Shown one piece after another: positions 1-61,413 of a stretch of DNA of 64,000 nt. This stretch comes from Amphibalanus amphitrite (lineage: Eukaryota > Arthropoda > Thecostraca > Balanomorpha > Balanidae). Location of the stretch: positions 62,001-126,000 of the forward strand of contig NW_024883014.1 in the NCBI RefSeq assembly GCF_019059575.1, read 5' to 3'. The first letter of the stretch is position 1; the number at the start of each line of letters is the position of its first letter. The position numbers and the translations under genes were made by a program. The notes under the pieces are model-generated. The model was not told the DNA's origin. It did not search any database and saw only the letters and a program-made list of their open reading frames with translations.

Positions 1-34
1 AGTTGACCAGCCGTAGTATACTGACAGTGGTCGG
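1..34 (-). repeat. Partial copy of the adjacent TRAF6 exon in the intron
   Basis: Bases 1-34 resemble bases 65-106 inside the zinc-finger exon: both begin AGTTGACCAGCCGT and end CAGTGGTCGG, with differences and a short gap between. The copy lies just past the exon's 5' splice site (exon edge at base 50), so the intron begins with a second, diverged piece of the exon. The copy may continue beyond the left edge. Confidence 0.6.
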
Positions 35-59700: not shown

Positions 59701-61413
59701 TCCCGGGCATTGCATTACGGAAATGTAGGTAACGCGTTACGTTGTGTCATTTCTGTTAATATTATTCATTAAAATAACAACTTAAAACAAAACAAAAAAT
59801 GACGATTATCCAGCATCTCTGTATAGTTCAAGCATGCTATACGTTTTACCGGCGCTCTATGTCCTGTTGTAGGTTTTACCGACGGTCTATGCCCCCGTTG
59901 TATGTTTTACCGGCGGCCCATTTTACACGTTATACGTGTAACCGTCGGTCCATAGGTCATGTTACACGTTGTACGTTTCACCATCTGTCTATGCCCCTGT
60001 TGTACGTTTTACCGGCGTTCCACGTCCCGGAGACGTTGATGCCGAACACGTGATAGGCCATCTCGGAGCGTTCCGTCTGCATGGAGGCCAGCAGCAGCCC
60101 GACATCTGTGGTCTCCTCGATCTGTCGGGGTTACGAAGACAGTGTCACACAATATTTGCGAGGAATTCGGTGACACACTGTCATATACAGAGTTTATGAG
60201 CTCTCCGTCAGCCTATCTGTCTCCACCGTGCCAGTCAGGCCTCTGACATCTGCCTCTGTCGCTTGATTGAATGCCTGTATGTGCGAGGCGGACCATTCTC
60301 CTCTCCCACCGCACGATTGAGGCGGACCATTTGCCTCTGCCGGTAGTTTCAATGGATCACACAGTACGGTCGAGTCAAGTGCGTCATTTGTCTGCGGGGT
60401 AGATGTGATGCCTTTGACGGTAGCTATCACGTCTTATAGTTCGAGTTAAACGGACCAGTTGCCTCTTTCGCTCGATGTTATTTCTCGCCGTGCAGGTCAG
60501 ACGTACAATTTGCCTCTACCGGCAGTTATAATGCTAGTTGTTATGTCTCACCTTGCGAGTCAGGTGGACCATTATCCTCAGAAGAATTGTATCTCACCGT
60601 GCGAGTCAGGCGGATCATCTGCCTCTGTCGGTAGATGGCCGATCCCAGGATGTAGCAGTTTTGCACGATCAGTGCCATCACCGGGATAAAGTGCAACACC
60701 AACATCTGTCAAAATATCAACAGTCACATTTCAGACTGAGCAATGTTTTGGTTGATATCGATGCCAAATTGTCTAGAAACGTAGCATTCGCTCTTCTGGG
60801 AGGACAGTCTTCCCTCCCTCTCCTGTATTTATGCAATATATTGTAATCGTTTGGGGTAACATGGACCGTCCTAATAGTCTCTAACCTGGACCACGTAGAA
60901 CCGGCGTCCCTGGCGTGTGTTGGGGTTGAACGTGCATCCCCGGTACATCTCGAAGCTGTACTGAGACTCGGTGATGGATGTGGTGCTGAACGACTTCCTG
61001 CTGCGCGTGGACATTGTGTCCGACTCTGCGGGGAGGGGGAGACAAGCGTAACATACATTCTGATATTAGTGCTGGAGACAGATGTAAATATTTTGTACTT
61101 ATGCTGTGCCTTTGCTACTGGTTTAGGCACTGCATCAACAAATTTTGTCTCGAATTTAAAATACGCGATTGAAACACTCGCTAGTGAAAGGATTTTCATG
61201 TATATTCCCCCTATACTATTTTAGCCGCTATGTAGCTATGTCGACGGTTTGACGTCGCTTTTTGACAGCATTACTTGATAATTTATGAACCCATTTTGGG
61301 ATACAGTCTCTCTAACCCCACCCACGGGTACCCGCTCTCGAGCTCTCACCCCTATGTACGCGACCTGTATGGCTGTTAGGCGTCAGCCGGTGCTGATCGG
61401 GCGCTCTCTCCAT
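44702..61413 (-). CDS. Membrane guanylate cyclase with NIT (nitrate/nitrite-sensing) domain
   Basis: Fifteen coding exons (minus): 61413-61350, 61025-60886, 60705-60598, 60121-60016, 59355-59178, 58919-58791, 55920-55681, 55402-55274, 52778-52649, 52324-52112, 51827-51704, 51353-51219, 49943-49860, 45169-45078 and 44791-44702. They give 653 residues with every phase matching. Order: cytoplasmic N-terminus; membrane helix about 70-93 ([20 protein letters not shown]); extracellular NIT-type helical domain about 105-370 ([14 protein letters not shown]); second helix about 381-399 ([19 protein letters not shown]); signalling helix; cyclase domain about 455-625. Cyclase blocks are [37 protein letters not shown] and [11 protein letters not shown]. 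Such NIT-cyclases are known from annelids, where they act in nitric-oxide signalling in photoreceptors. The metal Asp at 464 is present, but the second one (normally IGD) is Thr508. Guanine-specifying E504 and C576, and N583/R587, are kept. The family call is good; activity is doubtful. Confidence 0.88.
45293..45483 (+). repeat. 5' LTR
   Basis: 191 bp, TG...CA ends, and no difference from the 3' LTR noticed on comparison. Contains AATAAAATC near 45350 and TTTTTATATAC near 45451, which may serve as poly(A) and TATA-like signals. Confidence 0.92.
45514..46287 (+). CDS. Retrotransposon Gag
   Basis: 257 residues from the first ATG after the LTR; an in-frame ATG within the LTR (45421) is less likely. 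The capsid-like part begins [14 protein letters not shown]. Two zinc knuckles lie near the C-terminus: [14 protein letters not shown] (C-X2-C-X4-H-X4-C) and [13 protein letters not shown] (one residue shorter). These bind the element's RNA during packaging. The frame ends with TAG at 46285-46287, inside the Pol frame. Confidence 0.88.
   Translation: MSDLDLRLIPEFSGDSKTSVTEWIEKVELVCRLRGIHELEEVIPLRLTGGAFAVYQQIPEGDKEDVVKVKEALTAAFAHDSFVAYEKFVSRKLLPSETPDVFLAELKRLSALFGGISERGLVCAFISGLPASVRQVLRTGCRIESMRIDDLLVRARAVLADTNAFAVKAQSYAAITSPPPVVADECCGGVGARYERRCFNCNGANHLARDCLLKRTGTEKRTNVKCFRCGGPHFRRQCPENAVGEQSAPAFSPTVQK
46188..49424 (+). CDS. Retrotransposon Pol (protease, RT, RNase H, integrase)
   Basis: The frame is open for 1078 codons in the -1 phase relative to Gag. 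Its own first codons overlap Gag, so translation probably enters by a -1 frameshift in the 100 nt overlap. Protease: LALVDSGCS (about residue 52). Reverse transcriptase: [13 protein letters not shown] and YVDDILV (about 425). RNase [14 protein letters not shown] and [11 protein letters not shown]. Integrase: zinc motif H-H ... CQIC (about 735-770) and the D, D, E residues in [16 protein letters not shown] and NGIVERNHR (about 797, 851, 888). No stop or frameshift was seen inside, so the copy could be functional. Confidence 0.9.
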   Translation: MLQVWWSALPPPVSGKRRGRAVSASLLSDCPKIEALPCTEVSVDGTRVLALVDSGCSLCICHESVCRQWRRRNIYLKAINGQMMRCAGEGTVRIRVPEVTEVEVHALVVKDKPLGFHFILGMNAITAMGGVQISSSDAVRFGPAAVVDDAVGAAVSEETSSDSVRFESAAVVGDTYSLSVGATASEEKRSESEQKEQQSEPAAGKDLAAPSGVMPVVFHERTVYSPESLCIDEKDYRIVFDSGTKTWMVEWKWTERGEPDTLKNRVASYTVPEDRRAEYEEELQRWVDKDWLIPYDQTEHGQPAGLIPLMAVLQERKKKVRPVLDYRELNEHLDTHTADADVCTEKMRQWRKMGVNVAAVDLKSAYLQIHVHPSLWKYQTVIFRGKRWALSRLGFGMNISPSVMKSVLSTVLSLDPEVKKGTSSYVDDILVNEDVVSADSVCEHLSKFGLVAKEPERARDGAKLLGLSVHGEGGELQWRRGDDSHDVPDELTRRSVFSLCGKLVGHFPVCSWLRPAVAFIKRRANSVTESWDDQVRCEHVRNFLVEVTERVRQSDPVRGRWDVCGDDEAHLWVDASSVAIGVALEVGGSVIEDGAWLRTSDVTHINMAELDAVVKGLNLALAWGFQKITLYTDSATVHRWISDGLSGKTRLRTKAASEMLIRRRVEIVTSLVKEYQLQLSVELVQSEANKADVLTRVPHRWLRALAEGEDEAPPACGLAVETGTDAIGYLVARVHHEWGHPGIRRTHYFARLENSNVTRKEVQKVVADCQICRSIDPAPVKWRSGKLEVDTTWSRLAIDVTHVHGRPYLTAVDCGPSRFAIWQPLSAETAEAVAEQLDVLFVDRGPPAEVLVDNATAFRSRCFAQFASQWGVTVRYRCAYVPSGNGIVERNHRTVKVIAARKGCSVLEAVDIYNATPRHLNDAQSTPAGILSNCVQWDAGMMAPRTPNTAESPYEVGECVWVKPPQVRCDTRYEQGVVTNIISEQAVEVDGIPRHIRDLRPRVAEGDPGNLQNTSQVTARHVQDSSEDEEPLVLRFGCPSQTDGSVAVEPTGDGVQTEGQPLRRSARLRREPQRLMYS
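49548..49738 (+). repeat. 3' LTR
   Basis: 191 bp, no difference from the 5' LTR noticed, preceded by the purine tract and followed by the ATTGG target duplication. Confidence 0.92.
50096..51083. mobile_element. TTAA-family element (copy F) in a guanylate cyclase intron, 988 bp
   Basis: TTAA at 50092-50095 and 51084-51087; ends CCCTATTCCTGGCGGG and its near complement CGCCAGGAATAGGG. G-run and C-run blocks lie just inside each end, with many GGTCA/TGACC motifs between. Non-coding. It is a distinct subfamily from copies A-D, judged by the different terminal sequence. Confidence 0.82.
52077..52100. repeat. (TGCA)n microsatellite
   Basis: Short run of CATG/TGCA units close to the splice donor at 52112 on the minus strand. 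Confidence 0.6.
52839..52870 (-). repeat. Duplicate of the guanylate cyclase exon 9 acceptor border
   Basis: GAGACCAGCACCTCATCACT at 52838 onward repeats GAGACCAGCACTTCGTCACT at the real exon start (about 52750-52778), about 88 bp upstream in the intron on the minus strand. The copy also carries a CCGCAG-type acceptor. It diverges by several substitutions. Confidence 0.78.
53373..53885 (-). CDS. Small unassigned open frame inside the 2.2 kb element
   Basis: The minus-strand frame 53591-53373 includes [20 protein letters not shown] and ends soon before an AATAAA-type signal (plus TTTATT near 53325). A second frame at 53885-53649 lies upstream in transcription order. The CCKCRC cluster resembles short zinc-binding tails of transposon proteins. 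I do not recognise the family, and coding status is uncertain. Confidence 0.25.
54439..54888. mobile_element. hAT-type MITE, 450 bp, 8 bp target duplication AGCAGGAA
   Basis: Ends CAGTGGCGTACGCA and TGGGTACGCCACTG; direct repeats AGCAGGAA at 54431-54438 and 54889-54896. The interior is built of GGCGCCCCTCTGTCCAGTAT-type units in direct and inverted order. A small hairpin (TGTCAGTTATGTTCGT and complement, near 54737-54781) sits inside it. Confidence 0.88.
56746..57593. mobile_element. TTAA-family relative (copy G) with CGCGCAGTGGA ends
   Basis: TTAA at 56742-56745 precedes CACGCGCAGTGGA, and the right end is TCCACTGCGCG before TAAC. G/C-run blocks inside each end (GGGAGGGGCGG, GCCCCCCCCC; CCGCCCCTCCCC) and GGTCA motifs link it to the other copies. 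Terminal bases are less exact than in B, D and F. Confidence 0.6.
57870..58109. repeat. 240 bp hairpin element (95 bp inverted arms)
   Basis: Arms 57870-57964 and 58015-58109 are nearly perfect reverse complements around a 50 bp loop (ATATATTTTGGATTTGTTTT mirrored). Transcription would give a long stem typical of small-RNA precursors or fold-back MITEs. Confidence 0.85.
59360..59542. repeat. (GA)n dinucleotide repeat, about 183 bp, next to a splice acceptor
   Basis: An uninterrupted GA run. On the minus strand it is a (TC)n pyrimidine tract that ends directly before the CCCAG acceptor of guanylate cyclase exon 5 (exon starts 59355). Confidence 0.97.
59830..60016 (-). repeat. Minisatellite copied from the guanylate cyclase exon 4 donor
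   Basis: About five to six units of roughly 30-40 bp with the core CGCCGGTAAAACGTACAAC on the minus strand, which is the exon end (GCCG) plus its splice donor (GTAAAACG) at 60016. Some units have substitutions in the GT. Confidence 0.82.
60202..60640 (-). repeat. Diverged copies of the guanylate cyclase exon 3 donor border
   Basis: Plus-strand motifs of the form GTGCGAGTCAGGCGGACCAT followed by TTGCCTCTGTCGGTAG recur near 60230, 60283, 60325, 60450, 60497 and 60553, before the genuine border at 60598. On the minus strand each reproduces the last 35 or so bases of exon 3 and, in some copies, the CGGTGAGA donor. Spacing is irregular and identity is lower than in the other arrays. Confidence 0.72.

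Follow-up and report, generated by a model that had tools for sequence, protein, structure and literature searches.

Exon edges are copied, in direct orientation, into the adjoining introns of several genes within a 64,000-nucleotide stretch of the Amphibalanus amphitrite genome (contig NW_024883014.1, here C1517:62001-126000; this whole stretch is called the window and its positions are counted from 1), and such copies recur in unrelated genes on other contigs of the assembly (807.6 Mb, 2644 contigs). We consider it reasonably probable (about 0.6) that they are minisatellite-like duplications, tolerated and perhaps favoured at exon-intron borders, that lengthen existing introns. A sequence-only reading of the window had listed eight borders whose exon edge recurs in the adjoining intron, and these proved to be exactly the eight of 56 window borders that score at least 34 in the comparison described below.

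Exons of five window genes were placed by hand at GT/AG sites and their frames checked: a TRAF6-like gene (minus strand), TAMM41 (plus), NOSIP (plus), a trypsin-like protease (minus) and a guanylate cyclase with a NIT domain (minus; NIT-cyclase below). The joined frames are open in all five, several being incomplete at one end: the first TAMM41 exon and the last NIT-cyclase exons were not located, and the TRAF6-like gene is cut at the window edge. Pfam searches with four of these proteins (all but the protease) gave matches to Tam41_Mmp37, zf-NOSIP, NIT with Guanylate_cyc, and RING with zf-TRAF. Each border was represented by a probe of 30 exon and 10 intron bases, which was compared with 1.5 kb of the adjoining intron, and a score of at least 34 was counted as a case; the window provided 58 borders, 56 of which were kept once simple-sequence probes had been dropped. 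Other contigs were represented by 21 tiles picked before any result and by 8 extension tiles, picked mainly by exon density when the cases in tiles L004 and L008 were already known. Here 44 predicted exons were retained by hand and transposon-like and repeat-like ones dropped, which left 83 tested borders; this selection preceded the final count but followed sight of the sample cases.

The exon 4 donors of the TRAF6-like gene and TAMM41 reached scores of 73 and 80, respectively. In NOSIP the scores were 48 (exon 3 donor), 44 (exon 4 acceptor) and 46 (exon 5 acceptor), and in NIT-cyclase 39 (exon 3 donor), 35 (exon 4 donor) and 41 (exon 9 acceptor). Over window and sample together, 12 of 139 borders score at least 30 against their true introns, compared with 0 of 139 when the introns are reversed or reverse-complemented: the copies are therefore not a product of chance, and they are direct in orientation. 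Donors (6/69) and acceptors (5/70) are struck alike. Two of the window cases are single copies (NOSIP exon 4 and NIT-cyclase exon 9), the NIT-cyclase exon 3 case is a decayed array and the other five are arrays (Table 1). The NIT-cyclase exon 5 acceptor also scored in an early test and was dropped as a case, the match being to a (CT)n tract. Directly before this acceptor lies a perfect GA/CT repeat of 92 units (59360-59543), presumably its pyrimidine tract.

Table 1. Exons, exon-edge copies and an inserted element at the eight window borders (window positions).
Feature	Position	Strand	Remarks
TRAF6-like zinc-finger exon (exon 4)	50..184	-	donor at 49; open frame and zf-TRAF match of joined protein
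TRAF6-like exon 4 donor-copy array, start	1..49	-	runs left past the window to about C1517:61741
TAMM41 exon 4	14558..14683	+	donor at 14684; protein alignment
TAMM41 exon 4 end and donor, 46/47-bp array	14647..14922	+	exon unit, four intronic GT units, one decayed unit
NOSIP exon 3	20959..21061	+	donor 21062 in the model used; use of donor assumed
NOSIP exon 3 end, 26-bp array	21043..21538	+	CAG/GTCAGT kept in seven intronic copies, not in other units
Insertion of ~330 bp inside NOSIP exon 3 array	21539..21870		short terminal inverted repeats
NOSIP exon 3 array, remainder	21871..21993	+	three more donor copies
NOSIP exon 4 start and AG, single copy	24683..24710	+	98 bp upstream of real acceptor (first exon base 24783)
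NOSIP exon 5 acceptor array	25500..25767	+	pyrimidine tract, CAG and exon start, copied three times upstream; real first exon base 25750
NIT-cyclase exon 3 end and donor, decayed array	60224..60636	-	exon 60598-60705, donor 60597
NIT-cyclase exon 4 donor copies, array	59840..60028	-	exon 60013-60121, donor 60012
NIT-cyclase exon 9 start and CAG, single copy	52823..52868	-	87 bp upstream of real acceptor (first exon base 52778)

That many copies retain the splice site, as the sequence-only reading also held, is borne out: in each of the 11 cases in window and sample, one copy or more carries GT or AG. When copies are listed by GT, GC or AG positions only, the TRAF6-like exon and TAMM41 have four apiece, NOSIP exon 3 has ten strong ones, NOSIP exon 5 and NIT-cyclase exon 3 have three apiece, and NOSIP exon 4, NIT-cyclase exon 4 and NIT-cyclase exon 9 have a single one each. 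Many of these copies score like real splice sites. In the 11 cases the duplicated unit spans the exon-intron border and keeps the splice site, as in a boundary-crossing duplication, with the match reaching just two or three intron bases past the exon part at NOSIP exon 4, at NIT-cyclase exon 9 and at one sample acceptor (GPR155-like, see below). The site is not kept by all units, many of those in the NOSIP exon 3 array being without it. The TRAF6-like case had been guessed from 50 bases truncated by the window edge, and the next 500 bases outside the window do contain four further copies of the exon end with its GT, at +90, +155, +220 and +285, the farthest of which is identical to the exon edge at 34 of 34 bases.

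The suggested tendency across genes likewise held, spanning unrelated genes and recurring on other contigs, where 3 of 83 predicted borders score at least 34 (two of 50 in the 21 blind tiles and one of 33 in the extension tiles). These sample cases comprise a donor array and a single acceptor copy in a GPR155/LYCHOS-like gene and an acceptor of a BAZ1/ACF1-like gene, the latter with four copies that are each identical to the exon edge over 34 of 34 bases. The BAZ1/ACF1-like identity rests on a WAC domain and the GPR155/LYCHOS-like one on matches to lysosomal cholesterol signaling protein; Pfam returned nothing for the GPR155/LYCHOS-like protein. The GPR155-like donor was shifted from its predicted position within the array (15014) to 14820, where both the frame and the start of the array fit. 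Not counted as cases were a second BAZ1-like acceptor (a 15-base match, score 30) and weak matches at low-scoring predicted exons in tiles L015 and L021. As the exon prediction is exact for only about 60% of exons (leave-one-gene-out trial), the rate in the sample is diluted.

Are borders struck more often than other points? Our control was an intron point with a copy on one side only, matched for guanine-cytosine (GC) content. One-sided copies are common: 96 clusters scoring at least 34 were found in about 274 kb of noncoding sequence, and their frequency climbs with GC content, from 0.8% to 3.0% when all noncoding points of the sample are taken, and less regularly in the smaller genic sets. 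The cases number 11 among 139 borders, whereas GC-matched genic intron points lead one to expect 3.45 to 3.93, depending on the GC bins (P 0.0007 to 0.002). This is roughly a threefold excess, to which better detectability beside a conserved exon may contribute a factor of two. Near-identical copies (score at least 60) occur at 4 of 139 borders, with 0.39 expected from genic points (P 0.0007) or 0.52 from all noncoding points (P 0.002), and at 2 of 83 borders in the sample alone, with 0.04 expected; the detectability argument is weak for these, because a longer-lasting exon partner hardly matters at such scores. When automatic predictions from the first 21 tiles were examined with 60-base probes, 9 of 85 borders scored at least 30, several of them low-complexity or weak, versus 3.8% of control points. 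With the 60-base probe at this score, exon-interior points gave 1.2% versus 10.1% for intron points. A first per-position control, which set 8 of 57 borders (one being the (CT)n tract) beside these 10.1% of intron points, was set aside because the intron copies of border arrays inflate it. We conclude that the rate at borders is no lower than in GC-rich intron sequence and is probably higher.

Such an excess would be expected if splice-site regions were real hot spots, in which a feature tied to the border raises the rate of tandem duplication: candidates are the GT-rich donor or pyrimidine-tract sequence, the step in composition, RNA-DNA hybrids, or the conserved exon edge serving repeatedly as a template. 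In addition to the counts above, an apparent second copying of the TAMM41 exon edge speaks for this explanation. Several points count against it: doubling the null rate, to allow for the longer detectability beside a conserved exon, brings P to 0.16 at score 34, and the sample alone gives 3 cases against 1.0 expected from genic points (P 0.08) or 2.0 from all noncoding points (P 0.33). The genic expectation for young copies rests on five control clusters, one of which is part of the TAMM41 array. In a stricter test of cluster placement, whose touch rule discards copies ending at the border, 5 of 12 window clusters touch a border where 2.0 are expected (P 0.02, rising to 0.14 if the odds are doubled); in the sample 1 of 5 does, against 0.9. 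Eight of the 11 cases, moreover, come from a window selected because the effect was visible there. We therefore regard a genuine hot spot as rather doubtful.

The arrays also differ between assembled copies of the same gene. A second TAMM41 copy is present on contig C2107, its intron 3 being identical at 451 of 455 aligned bases. Counting the exon unit, the exon 4 array comprises five units followed by a remnant in C1517 (A-B-A-B-A') and three units followed by a remnant in C2107 (A-B-B'), and the second A of C1517 is identical to the exon unit along 47 bases. Either C1517 would have gained, or C2107 would have lost, 93 bp that include a copy of the exon edge, and both directions fit. For NOSIP exon 3, the array spans about 600 bp in C1517 versus about 460 bp in contig C871, as estimated from match coordinates, and the insertion at 21539-21870 has no counterpart on C871 among the matches listed. 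We infer that these second contigs are probably alleles. Marked divergence between homologous contigs, like the GC content and the size of the assembly, would be in keeping with a barnacle. Since the sizes of the TAMM41 and NOSIP arrays differ between two assembled copies, the duplication process looks recent or ongoing. The NIT-cyclase exon 3 array is mostly matched on C871; an additional 130 bp behind the donor there was ruled out as array growth, as it is a hairpin-like insertion without a further copy of the exon edge. This insertion lies in L034 (C871:59785-59985), some ten bases past that donor.

Genome assembly is known to be vulnerable at tandem arrays, and false tandem copies could have arisen during assembly or polishing. 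We find it hardly credible that the copies originate in this way: many bear substitutions and small indels of their own (the four BAZ1-like copies do not, within their 34 bases), and the second contigs exhibit arrays at the same borders with other lengths, as found for TAMM41 on C2107 and for NOSIP on C871.

Protein alignment was used to judge which of the neighbouring sites fits the protein. NOSIP residues 1 to 290 align with a chain of 8c6j, and TAMM41 aligns with 6ig2, a solved mitochondrial phosphatidate cytidylyltransferase. As the alignment is gap-free at TAMM41 exon 4 (LSYIGDFRM) and at NOSIP exon 5 (KPTGDVVTMECVEKL), the first TAMM41 donor and the last NOSIP exon 5 acceptor yield the conserved protein, which supports use of the exon-proximal site at both borders. 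Rows of similar sites could alternatively be functional, selected as ladders for alternative isoforms. The splice-site-like scores of many copies would suit such a role, and the poor alignment at the NOSIP exon 3/4 junction leaves room for a later donor. When 24 downstream donor copies were followed, three remained in frame without a stop (TRAF6-like +90, NOSIP +252 and NOSIP +405), but the other 21 either lose the frame or run into a stop. The TAMM41 row of this survey used the wrong phase and the stop was read from the open reading frame instead, which spans 14392-14688 and ends in SYIGG directly past the first donor. With several copies also in decay, we judge selection for isoforms to be very improbable.

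Tandem duplication is already established as a source of introns, and splice-site duplication is known from scattered cases. One report (PMC4974935) describes a potato RdRp gene in which a duplication across an intron-exon border made a new intron, with splicing signals inherited from the parental structure, and cites multiple copies of a 24-bp exonic segment in fission yeast; the model of intron gain by tandem duplication also appears in PMC3443670 and PMC2891723. The window arrays could accordingly be read as intron gain through duplication of AGGT-bearing exon pieces (the Rogers model), their introns being new, and both the retained splice sites and the potato precedent would agree with it. 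However, in that model the duplicated segment supplies both splice sites, which is not the case for the two arrays checked: the TAMM41 array ends at 14922 and the acceptor used lies at 15227, whilst the NOSIP exon 3 array ends at 21993 and its acceptor lies at 24783. Because the splice partner is outside the array, the TAMM41 and NOSIP exon 3 rows lengthen introns rather than create them, and we consider intron gain quite improbable as an explanation of the copies. The earlier proposal of an ongoing process that creates, extends or shifts introns is supported for the recent appearance of the arrays and in part for lengthening; its suggestion of intron creation finds no support, and the position of these acceptors speaks against AGGT-type duplication at the two arrays.

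Comparison with known systems follows the same lines. Cases of intron gain by tandem duplication (ATP2A1, fission yeast and Drosophila) share with ours short direct duplications that bear splice-site sequence within genes; there, however, the duplicated exon piece becomes the new intron, whereas here the copies lie inside an intron beside one border and the other splice site is outside the array at the two borders mentioned. The potato RdRp duplication (PMC4974935) resembles ours in crossing an intron-exon border and in taking its splicing signals from the parental structure, but there a single duplication in a single gene produced a new intron, whereas here several genes are involved, often with many copies, and existing introns would be lengthened. 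A crustacean parallel is provided by the neo-introns of Daphnia, which according to PMC4202315 carry direct repeats from staggered breaks, common to the intron and the adjoining exon; these are 4 to 12 bp long and stand at the opposite end of the new intron, whereas our copies are spaced by 26 to 98 bp and stand at the same end. Minisatellites, or loci with variable numbers of tandem repeats, offer the likeness of head-to-tail units of tens of bases with a copy number that varies between homologous copies. The window and sample arrays are such head-to-tail direct repeats, with units in the range of roughly 10 to 100 bp (3 of the 11 cases being single copies), and unit number varies between homologous copies in the two arrays compared in this way, TAMM41 and NOSIP exon 3. 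The difference is that one unit of each array here holds constrained coding sequence and a splice site in use. A literature survey of titles and abstract openings, with subscription papers mostly outside it, returned no border-anchored arrays at this density, nor any that differ between homologous copies in several unrelated genes.

The minisatellite-like origin that we favour would then operate as follows. Short tandem duplications with a spacing of about 26 to 98 bp, plentiful in the genome and mostly in GC-rich sequence, would repeatedly have landed across exon-intron borders. At a border, such a duplication may be nearly harmless, as the exon-proximal copy would remain the donor or acceptor and the extra copy would leave with the intron; for this reason it may persist, in contrast to duplications within an exon, most of which would be frameshifts. 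Through slippage or unequal exchange the arrays would subsequently grow and contract, lengthening existing introns, with the conserved exon edge acting as a lasting seed for each of them. Three observations weigh against this account. The border excess exceeds what tolerance and GC content predict, most clearly for near-identical copies, and so leaves room for a real border preference. The C871 copies are just 85 to 94% identical, so that they may represent other haplotypes or paralogues. The NOSIP exon 3/4 junction, finally, lies where conservation is poor and the solved protein contains additional residues, and use of the first donor is assumed there. A bolder interpretation can be put forward tentatively, as a possibility against which the odds still lie: borders would be true recurrent sources of duplication, and the conserved exon edge would be copied repeatedly, seeding polymorphic minisatellites anchored on splice sites, driving intron growth and leaving rows of competing sites at several per cent of borders.

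Other repeats and elements were noted along the way. A 320-bp element at window positions 22632-22952 has at least about 40 matches in the assembly, most of which show 97 to 99% identity and some of which adjoin one another, and is a young, abundant repeat. The trypsin-like protease gene contains an in-frame coding repeat (30594-30899), and an open frame of 1108 codons (46098-49421), situated close to the 3' part of the gene for NIT-cyclase, is by eye a candidate retroelement polyprotein. On another contig, tile L027 (C1:2490000) holds at 124-9402 a long run of SDTSDSSLRPQ repeats in predicted open frames, a very large minisatellite. Rfam, at gathering scores, returned nothing in the window.

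In the sampled tiles about 4% of predicted borders (3/83), and in the window 14% (8/56), carry copied exon edges. In a genome of this kind, with copy numbers that differ between homologous contigs, a living population would offer the chance to watch introns grow, a splice site being chosen from neighbours that are nearly identical, and minisatellites arising within introns.

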